Of a DNA stretch of 64,000 bases, positions 19,191-25,603 are shown one piece after another. This DNA is from Synechococcus sp. CBW1004 (GTDB lineage Bacteria > Cyanobacteriota > Cyanobacteriia > PCC-6307 > Cyanobiaceae), in the NCBI RefSeq assembly GCF_015840715.1, contig NZ_CP060397.1:620001-684000 (forward strand), read 5' to 3'. Position numbers and translations under genes: made by a program. Numbering within the stretch: the stretch's first letter is position 1; each line of letters opens with the position of its first letter. The notes below the pieces were generated by a model. That model was not told where the DNA came from and searched no databases. It saw only the letters and a list, made by a program, of their open reading frames with translations.

Positions 19191-20528
19191 TCAGGGGAGG
19201 GTGCCGGGCTGCCTGAGGTCCGGTCGGTTCCAGCGCCGGTCGATCCAGGGTGTGCGGTAGCCGCCGGTGAGCGAACGCAGGCCCGGGATCACGTAGGTGA
19301 TCGGCGAGCGCCATTCCACATAGGCATGGGTGGAGATGGTGAGGCCATCGCGGATCGGGAACACACCGCTGCCTCGTGAGAGGGTCCAGCGGTAGCCATC
19401 GACGCTGGCCGGATCGCGCTCCAGTTCGATCTCACTGCGCATCACCGGGCCGTTCTTGACCAGCTCCTGGGCCAGCTGAGGGTTGCCCACGGTGGTGGAG
19501 ATGTCCTCCTCGGTCGCGGGAAGGGTGAGCACCTGTGTGACCTTGCCGACGATGCCGCCGAAGCGCCCCCGCTGATTCCAGAGCGGCACCACCTCGACGG
19601 GAATGCCCAGCGGCAGGCGGCGGGCATCGGCCGGTGCGAAATAGGCCACCGCCTTGAGGGGCCGCTCGCGGGCATCCGGTTGTTCCGGGCGTCCGATCGT
19701 GCCCAGCCTCTGGCCGGTGCCCACGGTCTGGCCGGGAATGACCTGCAGATCGAGCACGGTGCCGTCCCGTTCGGCGATCACCTTGCCGTCGAAGGCGATG
19801 CGGGCTTCGATCACCCGGATCGCCCGGATCAGGTCATCGATCTGATAGCGGCGCTGCAGGGCCTGGGTCTCGATGTTGAGCTTGATCTGCTGAAAGTTGG
19901 TGAGAACCTCCTTTTCCTGGATCTTGATGGCGTCGAGATTGACGCCGGTGCTGGTCAGGCCCTGCTCAGCTGAGACCACCTCACTCGAGAGTGGGGCCAC
20001 CACCTCACGCTTCGCCAGCCAGTCGAGCCGGCGCAGCTTGGAGGCGTAGGTGGCCTGCAACTGGCCATAGCGCTCGCGGTCACTGGCGAACTTGGCCAGG
20101 GAGGTCTCGAGCGAGCGCTTCTCGCTGCCGAGCCGCTGGGCATCCCGTTCATCGAGCCGGGCGTTGTCGCGCTGCAGTTGCGCGAGGTTGCCACGTTGCT
20201 GCTGGAGCTGGCGCTCCAGCACCGGCAGATACAGGGTCATCAACACCTGGCCGCGCCGGACCCGCTCGCCAACCCTGACTCCCACCTCGCGCACCTGGCC
20301 GCCGGCGCGGGCGTTGAGGATGCCGGCGTTTTCCGGGTAGATGAGCACGCCGGTGCCGCTCACCTCAGTGGGCACCGGCCAGAACAGAGCCCACAGCGCC
20401 AGCACGCCGCTGACGCCCGCGAGGGCCACCCCGACCTGGGCGTGGTCGCTGAGGCCGCCCCAGCCCCGTCGGGGAGAGGGCAGCGGCTCCGGCGGCGACT
20501 GGGCGGAGGGGGGAGATGGAGCCTGCAT
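19191..20528 (-). CDS. HlyD-family adaptor, NHLM-secretion type
   Basis: 445 residues from ATG 20528; starts at 20540 and 20564 are also in frame. One membrane helix (VGVALAGVSGVLALWALFW, ~32-50) is followed by a biotinyl-lipoyl half (NARAGGQVREVGVRVGERV), a coiled coil (~100-250), the second half-motif (DGTVLDLQVIPGQTVGTGQ) and a C-terminal barrel. The C-terminal block AVAYFAPADARRLPLGIPVE, VLTLPATEEDISTTVGN and ELERDPASVDGYRWTLSRG resembles the HlyD proteins of NHLM bacteriocin export clusters. No NHLM peptidase/ABC gene or leader peptide is nearby, so here it may serve the adjacent FUSC/TolC pieces. Confidence 0.82.
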   Translation of the reverse strand: MQAPSPPSAQSPPEPLPSPRRGWGGLSDHAQVGVALAGVSGVLALWALFWPVPTEVSGTGVLIYPENAGILNARAGGQVREVGVRVGERVRRGQVLMTLYLPVLERQLQQQRGNLAQLQRDNARLDERDAQRLGSEKRSLETSLAKFASDRERYGQLQATYASKLRRLDWLAKREVVAPLSSEVVSAEQGLTSTGVNLDAIKIQEKEVLTNFQQIKLNIETQALQRRYQIDDLIRAIRVIEARIAFDGKVIAERDGTVLDLQVIPGQTVGTGQRLGTIGRPEQPDARERPLKAVAYFAPADARRLPLGIPVEVVPLWNQRGRFGGIVGKVTQVLTLPATEEDISTTVGNPQLAQELVKNGPVMRSEIELERDPASVDGYRWTLSRGSGVFPIRDGLTISTHAYVEWRSPITYVIPGLRSLTGGYRTPWIDRRWNRPDLRQPGTLP

Positions 20529-20641
20529 CCGGGCCAGCATGCAGGATGCCCCGTTGGCTGTCACCCCCCAGGGCGGCCGGGGCGCGGACCAGACGGAGAT
20601 CAGCGGCGAGAGCTGCCTAGATTCAGGCCCTTCGCGGCGGA

Positions 20642-21244
20642 CTGCTGAGCGGCTTCACCCGACCCCTGGCGCGGCTGATCGAGCAGTTCGAGCGCCTGCC
20701 CGGCATCGGGCCCCGCACCGCCCAGCGCCTGGCCCTGCACCTGCTGCGCCAGCCCAGTGAGCAGATTCAGGCGTTCGCCGAGGCCTTGCTGGCGGCCCGC
20801 AGCCAGGTGGGCCAGTGTCGCCGCTGCTTCCATCTCTCGGCCGAGGAGCTTTGCGAGATCTGCTGCAACGAGGAGCGCCGCAACGGCCAGCTGTGTGTGG
20901 TGGCCGATTCGCGCGATCTGCTGGCCCTGGAGCGCACCCGTGAATTTCGCGGCGGGTACCACGTGCTCGGTGGGCTGATCTCGCCGATGGATGGCGTCGG
21001 GCCGGAACTGCTGCAGATCCAGCCGCTGATCGAACGGGTGGATCGCGAGGGCGTCCAGGAGGTGATCCTGGCCCTCACCCCGAGTGTCGAGGGCGACACC
21101 ACCAGCCTGTATCTGGCCCGGTTGCTGCGGCCGTTCACCGCCGTCAGCCGCATCGCCTACGGCCTGCCGGTGGGCAGTGAGCTCGAATACGCCGATGAGG
21201 TGACCCTGGCGCGGGCTATGGAGGGGCGGCGGCCGCTGGAGTGA
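20642..21244 (+). CDS. recR: Recombination protein RecR (non-standard start)
   Basis: About 200 residues. The coding frame is open from just after the TAG at 20618 and contains every RecR feature: helix-hairpin-helix [14 protein letters not shown], a C4 zinc finger (Cys 59, 62, 71, 74 counting from CTG 20642), the Toprim segment [16 protein letters not shown] and [19 protein letters not shown] at the end. There is no ATG, GTG or TTG before 20786, which would delete the HhH and most of the zinc finger, so translation must begin at CTG 20642 or 20645, or ATT 20621. RecR loads RecA with RecF/RecO. Divergent from hlyD. Confidence 0.88.
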
Positions 21245-21332
21245 CGGATGTTTGGGGTTCGTGATCAGCTATACAGCAGAGATGGGTGGTTTTGAGTATG
21301 CGATAGGGAAGAACTGATCTGTTGGTGGTTTG

Positions 21333-22820
21333 ATGATGCGTGGCCAGTCTTCCATCGCACTTGAAATTGAGAGCCTCTTCAATCTGTTCGATCACGATGG
21401 CGACGGAATCATCACTGCCACTGAGTTGGAACGGAGTCTCGCGAGCCTTCAGGAGGTGATCCCGGCAGCAAGCGCCGCTGAACTGCGTGCCCTCGTTTCT
21501 CAGCAGGGCCAGCTGCGGGTCGATCAGTTCGTCGCCTTGACCCAGGACCAACCCTGCTTTGATCTGACGGTCAACCTGCGCGCGTTGTTCCACCTGGTCG
21601 ATCTGGATGGAAACGGATTCCTGAGCCGCCATGAAATCGGCGAACTGCTGCAGCTGTTGGACTGCAAGGCCACACCTGAGGCGATCGAATCATTGCTCGC
21701 AGCCCATGATCATGATGACAGCGGCACAATCGGCCCGGATGAATTCATCGCCATGCTCAATGAGCAGTCCGCAGTCTCGATTCGTCTCGCCGATCTGAAG
21801 CGCCTCAAGAAGAGCGCGATGCAGTACAGCCAGGCGGCCCGCACCCCCCGGATCGCCCTGGTGGAGGTGGATTGTGATCTCGGTGCCGGGATCCCTGGGG
21901 CCGGCTCCGGCATCGACATGCTCAAGCAGGCTGCTGCGCGTCAGGAGTCTCTGCGCGCGATCTGCGACAGCCTGCTGGCCGATATCGATGCTGGCCTCCA
22001 GCCCGCGCCGGCCCGCGCCGGTTCAGAGAAGCAGGCAGCTCACACGCCCTATGCCCGCAACATTGAATGCATCGCACAGGTGATGACCGAAGCCGCCGGA
22101 CTGGTCTCCCGGGTGCGCAGTCAGGGACTCTTCCCGGTCGTGCTGGCTGGTGATCACTCGACAGCAGCGGGAACAATCGCCGGCTTGCGCCGCGCCCATC
22201 CCGGCAGCCGCATCGGAGTGGTGTGGATCGATGCCCATGCTGACATCCATTCACCCTTCACCACACCGTCCGGGAACATGCATGGAATGCCGGTTGCGAT
22301 TGCAGCGGCTCACGACAATCATGGCCAGGCGATCCGGCAGCCGGATGCCTTCACGCTGACGCAATGGCAGCGCTGCAAGCAGCTCGCGGGGACAGGAAGC
22401 GCCGCGATGGAACTCTCTGATCTGATCTATGTCTCGGTGCGCGATACCGAACCAGCCGAGGATGATGCCCTGCGTGCCCACGGCATTCCTGTCATCACGA
22501 CCGAGGACGTGCGCCGCAATGGTCCGGAAACGACTGCCCAGTCCTGTCTGGATTATCTCGGCAACTGTGATCTGATTTATGTGAGCTTCGATGTCGACAG
22601 CATGGATGCCACCATCTGCAAAGGCACAGGGACACCCGTTCCCGGAGGGTTGTGGCTTGATGAGGCACGACGCATCAACGCCGCTCTTCTGGCTGATCCA
22701 AGGGTGATCTGCTGGGAGATCTGCGAGATCAATCCTCACCTCGACACCCTCAATACGTTGGCCGAAGTCTCCTTGAGCATTTATCAGAGCGTGCTCGAGG
22801 TGTTGCAGCGGCGTCTCTGA
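21333..22820 (+). CDS. EF-hand/arginase fusion protein
   Basis: 495 residues from ATG 21333. The N-terminal ~150 residues form a calmodulin-like module with three good EF-hand loops at residues 20-31 (DHDGDGIITATE), 90-101 (DLDGNGFLSRHE) and 126-137 (DHDDSGTIGPDE); a fourth, between the first two, looks degenerate. Residues ~170-495 are an arginase: AGDHS (His275), DAHADIH (Asp300, His302, Asp304), SFDVD (Asp420, Asp422) give the Mn2+ ligands, and SGNMHG, VRDTEP (Asp371), TGTP and CEINP (Glu465) match substrate-binding positions of true arginases rather than agmatinases. The residue matching human Asn130 is His306. Predicted reaction: arginine to ornithine and urea, probably controlled by Ca2+. 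The urea transporter follows 56 bp later. Confidence 0.88.
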   Translation: MMRGQSSIALEIESLFNLFDHDGDGIITATELERSLASLQEVIPAASAAELRALVSQQGQLRVDQFVALTQDQPCFDLTVNLRALFHLVDLDGNGFLSRHEIGELLQLLDCKATPEAIESLLAAHDHDDSGTIGPDEFIAMLNEQSAVSIRLADLKRLKKSAMQYSQAARTPRIALVEVDCDLGAGIPGAGSGIDMLKQAAARQESLRAICDSLLADIDAGLQPAPARAGSEKQAAHTPYARNIECIAQVMTEAAGLVSRVRSQGLFPVVLAGDHSTAAGTIAGLRRAHPGSRIGVVWIDAHADIHSPFTTPSGNMHGMPVAIAAAHDNHGQAIRQPDAFTLTQWQRCKQLAGTGSAAMELSDLIYVSVRDTEPAEDDALRAHGIPVITTEDVRRNGPETTAQSCLDYLGNCDLIYVSFDVDSMDATICKGTGTPVPGGLWLDEARRINAALLADPRVICWEICEINPHLDTLNTLAEVSLSIYQSVLEVLQRRL

Positions 22821-22876
22821 GGCCCGTTGTTGCCGCCACAGCTGTTCAGTGCGGCTGAGTCCCTCGCCCCCACGCC

Positions 22877-24532
22877 ATGAGACCGCCTGAGAACCCGTCA
22901 GCGCCCGATGTCTTCGGGCTTCTCAACAGCTTTCTGAGCTCTCCAGGACGAAGCGACGACGTCCTGGACGATGCCGCATTCGCACCCCGTCTCATCCTGC
23001 CCACGGCCGGTACATTGCCAGGCCTCGCGAGACGCCTTGGCGGCGGTTCTGTCGCCCATGGGTTGTGCGTGACCGGCCGCAGCCTGGCCCAGGCGATCTT
23101 CATCAACAACCCGGTCAGTGGTCTCCTGCTGCTCCTGGCCCTGCTGCTGCAGGGACCGGTGATGGCGCTGGTGCCTCTGATCGGCATCGCCGCTGCCAAC
23201 CTCACTGCCAGCGTCATCGGCGCCGATGCGGCAGCCCGTCGCCAGGGGATTCATGGCTTCAACGGGGCTCTGGTGGGTGCCGCCGTGGCGGCCTTCGCCG
23301 CTTTCTCCAGTCCGGCGGCGACCCTGGCCTGGCTGCTGTCGGCGCTGCTGGCAGCCGCTTGCACCACGCTGCTGATCGAGACCCTCGGGCGCTCGATGCT
23401 GCATCGATTCGGGGTGCCCCCGCTCACCCTGCCGTTCTGCCTGGTCACCTGGCTGCTGCTTGCCGTGGCGCAGGCCCTTCCCGCAGGCGTGCTGCCCCTG
23501 GCGGACACCGTTCTCCTGCCGCCGCCTGAGCCGATGGCTCTGATGCTGCCCCTCGGGACGGTGCGCGGTTTCGCTCAGGTGTTTCTCTGCCATTCACTAT
23601 CCGCTGCTCTGCTGGTGCTGGCGGCTGTAGCGGCCGCCAGTCCGCTGGCGGCTCTGCTGGGTCTGGCGGGAGGTCTGGTGTCGAGCCTCACCAGCCTGGC
23701 GCTGGGCATGGATCCTGCGTCCGTGGCCCTGGGCCTGGGCAGCTACAACGGCGTTCTCTGTGCCATCGCCATCGGCGGCATTTTCCATGCCCCCCTTCCT
23801 GCGAGCGTTGTGATGGCCCTCCTCACGGCCATCGCCAGCGCGCTGCTGGCTCCCCCCTTGGCCATGGCGCTCGGGGTGGTGGGCCTGCCCGCGCTGACCG
23901 GACCGTTCGTGCTCGCAACCCTGCTGATGCTGCCGGCGCTGCGTCGTCATCTGCCAGCCCTGCTTCCCGTGGCGCTGCACGCCCTGGTCACGCCGGAGGA
24001 GCACCGTCAGCGCCACAGGGTGGCCAGGATCTTGCTGGGCGACCTTTGCCGTCGTCTGAGCCGGGCGGTGCACGGCGAGCGCCGGCTCTGGTTGCTTCCC
24101 CAGATCACCCCCCTGCAGCGCAGGCAGCTCGGGCAGATGTTCACGCGCCTGGACAGCGACCAGGACGGTTCTGTCAGCCTTGAGGAATGGATGCATGCCC
24201 TGTCCGACCGGGACCCCCACACCACCCGTGCCCGCTTGCGCGAGGTGATGGCCTCCATGGATCTTGATGGGGATGGCCGGGTGGATCGGAACGAGTTCTC
24301 CGAGCTGATGCTTCGGCTCAGGCGGCTGGCCGCTGGCCGGAAGCGGCTGTTCACCTATCTCCAGCCCGTGGACCGCGACAGCGATGACCGCCTTGATCCG
24401 ACTGAGTTCGACCGGTTGCTGCGCAGTGTCGGCCAGCCTCCGCTGCAAGGTGAGGAGCGGCGGCGCCTTTTCGCGAACACCGGCGGCACCCTCAGCTGGA
24501 GCACCCTCCTGGACAGACTGCTGCTCATCTGA
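22877..24532 (+). CDS. Urea transporter with C-terminal EF-hands
   Basis: 551 residues. Residues ~60-370 are a polytopic urea-transporter (UT) fold with its two internal repeats: [20 protein letters not shown] and [16 protein letters not shown], then [20 protein letters not shown] and [16 protein letters not shown]. Residues ~420-520 are cytoplasmic EF-hands with loops at 426-437 ([12 protein letters not shown]), 462-473 ([12 protein letters not shown]) and a weaker 499-510 ([12 protein letters not shown], lacking the usual Gly). UT proteins are channels for passive urea flow. A UT channel with a calcium-binding tail beside an EF-hand arginase is the most striking arrangement in the window. 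lipA follows after 14 bp. Confidence 0.85.
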
Positions 24533-24546
24533 CTGCGGTACACCCG

Positions 24547-25461
24547 GTGCCCATCAACAGCCGTTACAGCGCCATCCCGCCGGCCGAGCGGCTGCCCGGC
24601 TGGCTGCGATCACCGATCGGCAATGCCAGCGCCCTGGAGGGAGTGCAGGGTGTGGTGAAGCAGCAGCGGCTGCACACCATCTGTGAGGAGGGTCGCTGCC
24701 CCAACCGGGGGGAGTGCTACACCGCCGGCACTGCCACCTTCCTGCTGGGGGGGCCGATCTGCACCCGCAGTTGCGCCTTCTGCCAGGTGGACAAGGGCCA
24801 GGCGCCCGCACCGGTCGATGCCGCTGAACCGCAGCGGGTGGCGGAGGCGGTGCGGCAGCTGGGCCTGCGCTACGTGGTGCTCACCGCCGTGGCCCGCGAC
24901 GATCTGGCCGACCACGGCGCCGGCCTGTTCACGAGCACCATCGCGGCGATCCGGGCTGTGGATGGCGGCGTCCGCATTGAGGTGCTCACACCGGATTTCT
25001 GGGGCGGTGAGCGCGACCCCGAACGGGCCGAAGCGCTGCAGCGCCAGCGCCTGCAGACGGTGCTTGACGCTGCGCCGGTGTGTTTCAACCACAACCTCGA
25101 GACGGTGGAGCGGCTGCAGGGAGAGGTGCGTCGCGGCGCCACCTACCGGCGCTCCCTGGGTCTGCTGGCGGCGGCGCGCGAGCTGGCGCCTGGGATTCCC
25201 ACCAAGAGCGGCCTGATGCTGGGCCTGGGTGAGACCGACCAGGAAGTGCTGCAGACCCTCAGGGATCTGCGGGCAGTGGACTGCCAGCGGCTCACCCTCG
25301 GCCAATATCTGCGGCCGTCCCTGGCCCACATCCCGGTGGCCCGCTACTGGAGCCCGGAGGAGTTCGAGGCGCTGGGCGCCATCGCCCGCGACCTGGGCTT
25401 CGCCGATGTGCGCAGTGGCCCGCTGGTGCGCAGCAGTTATCACGCCGAACTGGCCGGCTGA
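24547..25461 (+). CDS. lipA: Lipoyl synthase
   Basis: 304 residues from GTG 24547. Contains both LipA cysteine clusters: the auxiliary cluster [12 protein letters not shown] and the radical-SAM CTRSCAFC, plus [15 protein letters not shown] and [19 protein letters not shown], and the C-terminal [10 protein letters not shown] with the conserved RSSY serine. It inserts two sulfurs into octanoyl groups of lipoate-dependent enzymes. It lies 14 bp after the urea transporter, so it may be co-transcribed with that pair, although no functional link is evident. Confidence 0.96.
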
Positions 25462-25603
25462 GGGGCTTCCCCGGGCCAGCCGGGACATCTCATCCGTCGT
25501 GCGGGTTCAGCGGTGAAGGCCTCTTCGAGCCAGGGGTCCTGTGGAGCCGATGGATGGCCTGGTGTCCGCATGCGGCCGATGCCACCCGCATCCGCCATCA
25601 GGG

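Follow-up and report, generated by a model that had tools for sequence, protein, structure and literature searches.

The described system closest in layout to the locus reported here is the mitochondrial ATP-Mg/Pi carrier (APC/SCaMC), which unites a calmodulin-like domain of four EF-hands, an amphipathic linker helix and a transport domain in one chain (PMC6283063). In the proposed locking-pin mechanism, for which there is experimental support, the linker helix obstructs the carrier as long as Ca2+ is absent, and the sensor pulls it away once loaded with Ca2+. In Anabaena, Ca2+ has been tied to the carbon/nitrogen (C/N) balance via CSE (Asr1131), a cyanobacterial EF-hand protein linked to nitrogen status; this small sensor protein stands alone, fused to neither enzyme nor channel, and is reported to be nearly confined to filamentous cyanobacteria, and the 2020 paper on it calls cyanobacterial signalling mechanisms 'virtually unknown' (PMC7065334). 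Here we describe two adjacent genes in a 64,000-nucleotide stretch of Synechococcus sp. CBW1004 (hereafter the window), encoding an arginase-family ureohydrolase with an N-terminal calmodulin-like domain and a urea-transporter (UT) family channel with a C-terminal one, which probably form a module placing urea chemistry under calcium control.

The eukaryotic APC/SCaMC carries its sensor at the N-terminus, whereas that of the UT protein is C-terminal, and the two transport domains are unrelated; as the window channel has a UT domain and not a mitochondrial carrier (SLC25) domain, it is an analogue of APC/SCaMC rather than a member. With arginases (2CEV; PF00491) the window enzyme shares the catalytic domain, six metal ligands, loop-A length and fold, and it differs by the calmodulin-like domain, a linker helix, His306 and Glu373 in place of Asn and Asp, and a score below the rocF cut-off. 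The channel resembles UT/SLC14 channels (bovine UT-B 4EZC, D. vulgaris 3K3F) in its channel domain, fold and repeated TLPF-type signatures, which were found by structure-sequence search and alignment, and adds a C-terminal linker helix and four-EF-hand domain. Each part comes from a known family; what is new is the domain arrangement and the presence of a calcium sensor on both members of an enzyme-channel pair, and full-text searches of the open-licence literature found no paper describing either fusion.

Architecture of the enzyme and the channel

Open reading frames (ORFs), Pfam profiles and AlphaFold2 (AF2) models agree with the layout proposed by the first-pass annotation, which had been made from the sequence letters: an arginase with N-terminal EF-hands is followed on the same (+) strand by a UT channel with C-terminal EF-hands, across a gap that the ORFs confirm as 56 bp (Table 1). 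The enzyme matches Arginase PF00491 (2.8e-49; 168.5 bits against a cut-off of 22), and EF-hand_6, EF-hand_7, EF-hand_1 and EF-hand_5 all exceed their cut-offs within residues 11-141. The channel matches UT PF03253 (7e-61; 206.4 bits against 25) and has EF-hand_7 over cut-off, with the best stretch at residues 416-478. Sequence searches against solved structures matched the enzyme to arginases and calmodulin/troponin C, and the channel to urea transporters and calmodulin.

The AF2 model of the channel has a mean predicted local distance difference test score (pLDDT) of 80.5 and a predicted template modelling score (pTM) of 0.77; for the enzyme the values are 85.0 and 0.65, a modest pTM at which the placement of the sensor relative to the enzyme domain is not to be trusted. 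The enzyme sensor consists of four helix-loop-helix units (helices 7-19/29-38, 45-58/63-70, 78-89/99-109 and 115-125/135-143), as does that of the channel, whose helices lie between 412 and 550. According to models and sequence, three units per protein have EF loops of canonical length and one is degenerate, namely the second in the enzyme (between helices 45-58 and 63-70) and the fourth in the channel. In each model a single helix joins sensor and effector, so that each protein would be tied to its own calmodulin-like domain by a basic linker, in the order sensor-helix-enzyme in the first and channel-helix-sensor in the second. In Foldseek searches the best solved match of the enzyme model was the B. 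caldovelox arginase 2CEV (E 8.4e-20; template modelling score 0.85 by target); as the 50 matches listed were all arginases, its EF domain is backed by sequence and predicted helices, not by the fold search. The channel model matched bovine UT-B 4EZC best (9.7e-15), with calmodulins further down the list, from 1.2e-3.

Table 1. Features of the enzyme-channel locus and its flanks, in window positions
Feature	Position	Strand	Basis
Arginase-family (H-E type) ureohydrolase with N-terminal calmodulin-like domain, 495 aa	21333..22820	+	ORF, Pfam, AF2, Foldseek
Alternative start TTG of enzyme gene	21330	+	ORF list
Four-EF-hand domain of enzyme, residues 7-143	21351..21761	+	Pfam, AF2 helices, ligand conservation
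Basic amphipathic linker helix of enzyme, residues 152-169, at the junction of sensor and catalytic domain	21786..21839	+	AF2 helix, charge, hydrophobic moment
Arginase catalytic domain, residues 174-485	21852..22787	+	Pfam, alignments, fold
UT-family urea channel with C-terminal calmodulin-like domain, 551 aa	22877..24532	+	ORF, Pfam, AF2, Foldseek
UT channel domain, residues 66-353	23072..23935	+	Pfam; Foldseek 4ezc 9.7e-15
Basic amphipathic linker helix of channel, residues 373-398, past the last channel segment	23993..24070	+	Alignment, AF2, charge, hydrophobic moment
Four-EF-hand domain of channel, residues 412-550	24110..24526	+	Pfam, alignments, AF2
recR, upstream flank	20639..21244	+	Match to intact relative starts at 20639
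lipA, downstream flank	24547..25461	+	Match to relatives
NHLP-type (bacteriocin system) HlyD secretion protein, two genes upstream of the pair	19191..20564	-	Over NCBIfam cut-off

The six EF loops given in the first-pass annotation lie at the residues it named, 20-31, 90-101 and 126-137 in the enzyme and 426-437, 462-473 and 499-510 in the channel. Their ligand positions were read from an alignment into which 38 loci were entered (loci and genomes are given below by our L and G numbers); 34 enzymes and 24 channels passed, of which 28-29 and 23 rows, respectively, have letters at the EF columns, the window row included. At loop positions 1, 3, 5 and 12, enzyme loop 20-31 has D in 27/28 rows, D/N in 24/28, D/N in 28/28 and E in 24/28; loop 90-101 has D in 28/28, D in 23/28, S/N/D in 28/28 and E in 28/28; and loop 126-137 has D in 28/29, D/N in 29/29, D/S/N in 29/29 and E/D in 28/28. 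In the channel, loop 426-437 has D, D/N, D/N/S and E/D in all 23 rows, and loop 462-473 has D in 22/23, D/N in 22/23, D/N/S in 23/23 and E in 23/23. Loop positions 2, 7, 10 and 11 are mostly variable across enzymes and channels. The third channel loop was read from a second, separate channel alignment, because the reference row of the first is cut short of it; D499 and E510 are kept in at least 90% of its 15 rows, and the usual Gly at position 6 is lacking in the window and in most rows. Both proteins have the canonical 12-residue loops (three of four, with the third channel loop atypical at position 6) and the paired hands of an EF-hand/calmodulin-like sensor, and would be expected to bind Ca2+.

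The linkers are likewise retained. Across 22 enzyme rows their net charge lies between +1 and +7, and across 15 channel rows between 0 and +5; it is positive in 36 of these 37 rows, the exception being a channel row with a charge of 0. For amphipathicity, each linker was set against all stretches of the same length in its protein, each represented by its best 18-mer; on this scale the window's enzyme linker ranks in the top 1.3% and its channel linker in the top 2.5%, and 15/22 enzyme and 9/15 channel linkers exceed the 95th percentile. Conservation is slightly higher in the linkers than in the EF domains (0.61 vs 0.53 and 0.69 vs 0.62).

The claim of the first-pass annotation that both families normally lack such domains agrees with what was found outside the clade of EF-hand enzymes: none of 50 EF-less enzyme loci carries one. 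In 299 genomes from the phylum of a Burkholderiales metagenome-assembled genome (MAG), G437, 49 had a UT match and 30 loci were examined; EF-hands, sought by loop pattern or similarity, occur in one, G437's own, which adjoins an EF-hand enzyme. Four other extended UTs tested (L211, L193, L195 and L141; 559-741 aa), from three genomes of G437's phylum and one cyanobacterium (G050), have a Peptidase_M23 domain where the window channel has EF-hands, and open frames about as long as these fusions occur at many other UT loci.

Recurrence and history of the gene pair

A scan of 84,980 species genomes for the enzyme gave 247 loci, of which the best 80 were kept. Among these, 30 loci (L021-L048, L071 and L075) form the EF clade and comprise 21 intact EF-hand enzymes, three broken frames (L040, L046, L075), three copies cut by contig ends (L034, L047, L071) and three enzymes without EF-hands (L043-L045). 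A UT gene lies directly downstream in 12 of the 21 intact loci and at another site of the genome in four (L029, L030, L032, L036), and none was found in four Burkholderiales MAGs, which may be incomplete (L037, L039, L041, L042); L038 fell outside this search, and L070 likewise outside the genome search. The pair is thus not confined to the window genome; such confinement is what the first-pass annotation had named as a refutation of its reading. Adjacent pairs range from 4-bp overlaps (L033, L048, and L045, whose enzyme has no EF domain) to gaps of 185 bp. These overlaps suggest translational coupling; the starts in other overlapping pairs are guesses.

Co-occurrence was further assessed in 386 genomes sampled evenly from the window's phylum. 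Twelve have a channel domain match, 11 of them strong (E<=1e-49) and all 11 with an EF-hand tail (UT-EF); the twelfth, in G050, is the UT-M23 protein mentioned above and was set aside from the counts. The enzyme catalytic domain is matched in 17 genomes at E<=1e-25. Ten of these matches stand at about E<=1e-56, including the enzyme of G261 (38% identity, no EF-hands, His/Glu residues not read), and the other seven (E between 1e-38 and 1e-26), canonical arginases of classes other than the window's, were left out. Both genes occur together in eight genomes, of the 11 with the channel and ten with the enzyme (Fisher p 6e-13), and are side by side in seven of the eight; across 25 genome pairs, enzyme distances track channel distances (Mantel r 0.90; 0/5000 permutations), and kinship among the rows inflates both figures. 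No such enzyme was found in three sampled cyanobacteria with UT-EF (G414, G177, G420).

In a maximum-likelihood tree of 50 catalytic domains, the 31 rows of the EF clade group together with support of 100/100, on a long stem inside a larger EF-less set from Bacteroidota, Ignavibacteriota and Methylococcales and with canonical arginases outside; the tree program warns of long branches among the EF-less rows. The clade contains cyanobacteria, Burkholderiales and a Myxococcota MAG. Five Burkholderiales rows and the Myxococcota one are nested among the cyanobacteria, pointing to horizontal transfer or mis-binned contigs. The EF-less L043/L044 and L045 stand at different places within the clade as drawn, and the simplest reading is therefore one gain of the EF domain and at least two losses from the enzyme. 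Two bin titles in the clade are evidently wrong, 'Bifidobacterium breve' (L027) and 'Bordetella parapertussis' (L037), as these copies group with cyanobacteria and other Burkholderiales bins.

Broken enzyme genes occur in L040, L046 (same contig as L134) and L075, and the channel gene is also broken in L040 and L075; these copies, in Moorena and a Microcoleaceae MAG, suggest recent loss. The enzyme of L137:4886-6459 (G238, one contig) is split between two overlapping frames, with its first EF unit in one and everything else in the other, through either a real frameshift or a sequencing error. On plasmids the channel was not found, and the enzyme was matched in 43 records, none covering 80% of the query; the ten such matches listed begin at residue 138 or later and have no EF domain. 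Viral contigs, searched for the channel alone, yielded no relatives of it.

Genomic surroundings and direction of urea flow

The matches to recR and lipA, the flanking genes, end at most 52 bp apart in 11 of 14 other genomes searched, and the pair in the window is therefore an insert between them; in two others, G009 and G013, the distance is 357-589 bp. In G414 the slot is filled by the channel gene alone, and in G287 recR and lipA are adjacent and the pair lies at another site; the two genes thus behave as a unit at different sites. GTA-N8-TAC, which we take to be the pattern of NtcA-type sites, does not occur in the window by pattern scan, and a promoter and terminator scan over 20500-25600 gave nothing exceeding chance.

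Other neighbourhoods contain further genes. In G269 the pair is preceded by a glutamine synthetase gene (L136:3076-4557). A partner-switching module adjoins the EF-enzyme or UT-EF gene in several cyanobacteria (L033:4363-7941, L036:3897-7602, L032:389-2501, L133:3412-5356); in L033 it consists of a protoglobin-STAS sensor, a STAS protein, an HATPase and two SpoIIE phosphatases, and in L036 the protoglobin-STAS sensor was confirmed; the remaining parts were identified by similarity. Furthermore, inosine-uridine nucleoside hydrolase genes adjoin UT-EF (L130:6324-7436) or lie 1.3 kb from it (L133:8394-9398); these neighbours, in G420 and G177, where no such arginase was found, hint at a link to purine nitrogen.

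UT channels are passive, and the second gene is predicted to encode a passive urea channel. It matches the family profile and fold (PF03253; UT-B fold match) and scores below the yut equivalog TIGR03441 (159.3 bits against a cut-off of 274.6). Export of urea, as proposed by the first-pass annotation, finds no confirmation. The urease alpha subunit is present in all 13 sampled genomes with a UT-EF gene or an enzyme match at E<=1e-56, and the UrtA importer exceeds its cut-off in 15 of 17 genomes tested, including that of the window. In G247 and G177, which lack UrtA, UT-EF is the only urea transporter found by UT and UrtA searches. Urease itself was rejected as a discriminator of export: in the window's family, 51 of 57 sampled genomes have it, whether they carry the pair or not. 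The channel may release urea when the enzyme outruns urease, or it may admit urea.

Substrate of the enzyme and probable calcium control

The first gene would encode a Mn-type ureohydrolase, most likely an arginase converting arginine to ornithine and urea. The metal ligands H275, D300, H302, D304, D420 and D422 are invariant in a 47-row alignment, as are the equivalents of His141 and Glu277 (human arginase numbering), which we take to be the catalytic residues. The position of human Asn130 is occupied by His306, invariant in the 47 rows, and that of Asp183 by Glu373, kept in at least 90% of them. Within the EF clade, His306 occurs in 33/33 and Glu373 in 34/34 rows, and among 45 readable EF-less relatives His occurs in 45 and Glu in 43 (Gln in L089, Asp in L094); seven readable arginases outside the window's class (L122-L128) keep Asn and Asp, and eight of the 60 relatives (L071, L075, L078, L081, L085, L087, L090, L121) had no readable motif pair and were left out. 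According to PMC9224512, the two human residues contact the alpha-carboxylate and alpha-amino group of arginine. The identification as an arginase in the first-pass annotation stands as far as PF00491, the metal ligands and the profile scores go, and is weakened by this change in the active site; the substrate is quite probably arginine, but arginine is only the likeliest candidate.

Given the His/Glu change together with the gene neighbours of EF-less relatives, agmatine is a live alternative: the same architecture and calcium control may apply to an agmatinase (agmatine to putrescine and urea), or to an enzyme acting on another guanidino compound, and hence to polyamine metabolism, which we regard as possible but doubtful. 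Consistent with it, both contacts to the arginine backbone are replaced across the EF clade and its EF-less relatives, a speA-like decarboxylase gene adjoins 10 of 50 EF-less loci, and two Methylococcaceae loci adjoin carboxynorspermidine genes. For six of the speA-like neighbours tested, arginine decarboxylases are the two best NCBIfam models, far below their cut-offs (e.g. 172 against 369 bits). Agmatine deiminase was not found in the window genome or in five of eight decarboxylase-linked genomes searched, but two of these five (G463, G478) have an agmatinase over cut-off and three a match under it. Two further ureohydrolases encoded in the window genome exceed the agmatinase cut-off (245.6 and 181 bits), and the window enzyme, although below the cut-off of both equivalogs, is far closer to arginase (rocF TIGR01229, 195.3 bits against 227.6) than to agmatinase (TIGR01230, 52.7 against 174.3), with a loop A of full arginase length in which Ser313 and Asn315 are kept. 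The neighbour evidence is at most suggestive for the substrate. As urea is a co-product from either arginine or agmatine, the enzyme fits its channel partner in both cases. The EF-less H-E type enzymes that adjoin the decarboxylase gene (L049, L050, L070, L073, L074, L086, L089, L095, L097, L099) are mostly from Bacteroidota bins, and the annotation 'arginase' may be wrong for this EF-less subclade. A peptide arginase, raised as a candidate by the NHLP-type secretion gene, was ruled out by motifs: OspR (pfam12640) shares the chemistry of the arginase superfamily and urea as co-product, but its motifs (PMC10028609) differ from the GDHST and FDVDSMD of the window enzyme.

For the pair as a whole, joint control of both proteins by Ca2+ is the most economical reading and, judged from sequence, a likely one. 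By analogy with the APC carrier helix, Ca2+ loading of each sensor would withdraw its linker helix from the effector; the locking-pin mechanism has experimental support in the carrier, whereas here it would hold by resemblance. If the termini are placed as in other UTs, presumably inside the cell, the channel sensor would lie on the cytoplasmic side. Several observations weigh against this reading. The coupling is not strict, with EF-hand enzymes lacking a detected UT gene, UT-EF lacking a detected enzyme, and the EF domain absent from the enzyme in two lineages (L043, L044 and L045), so that of the earlier idea of two sensors switching together both modules are real and their constant pairing is not. 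In addition, some copies, such as the L031 channel, have degraded loops, 7/22 enzyme and 6/15 channel linkers fail the 95th percentile, and the inflated co-occurrence statistics, the uncertain domain placement in the enzyme model and the altered active site count on the same side.

The EF-hands could instead bind Ca2+ constitutively, or Mg2+ or Mn2+, and stabilise the proteins without any switching. Bacterial EF-hands can be structural, and that enzymes without the domain occur more than once suggests that catalysis does not require it; yet whole four-hand domains beside conserved basic helices are sensor-like rather than single structural hands, and the ligands are conserved on two unrelated effectors, which makes a purely structural role unlikely. 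Less probable still is a physical tether, in which pairing between the sensors of enzyme and channel delivers urea at the mouth of the channel. The same kind of domain on both partners, the adjacency of the genes and the odd number of canonical loops in each protein would suit such an arrangement, but AF2 predicts four helix-loop-helix units per protein and hence no unpaired hand, and UT-EF persists with EF-less enzymes (L045, G447, G448) or where no enzyme was found, as does the EF-hand enzyme where no UT was found. A chance meeting of two unrelated EF-hand fusions, for which no supporting point was found, can practically be dismissed because the pair recurs in many genomes, under three phylum labels. 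Furthermore, a whole-genome profile search places EF-hand_7 over cut-off at two places in the 3.67-Mb genome, these two adjacent ORFs (a third place is below cut-off), and in one of 14 control genomes; two randomly placed genes would be neighbours with a chance of ~0.0006, assuming 3500 genes.

Of these explanations, we therefore retain shared calcium control. Ca2+ signals have been described in bacteria, but it is difficult to point to their direct metabolic targets; this locus offers two effectors, apparently of one pathway and each with its own sensor, that are open to purification and assay. According to a 2014 paper, no gene had yet been assigned to an enzyme with arginase activity in Anabaena (PMC4234267), and the window enzyme is a candidate arginase for some cyanobacteria. 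With chances that we judge evenly balanced, a single second messenger would directly switch both a urea-making enzyme and a urea channel, and the pair would act as a nitrogen valve under Ca2+ control, passed on as a cassette among cyanobacteria, Burkholderiales and Myxococcota. Since both proteins carry a built-in calcium sensor, calcium may control nitrogen turnover in the cells that carry them, a reading that can be tested directly through this gene pair.

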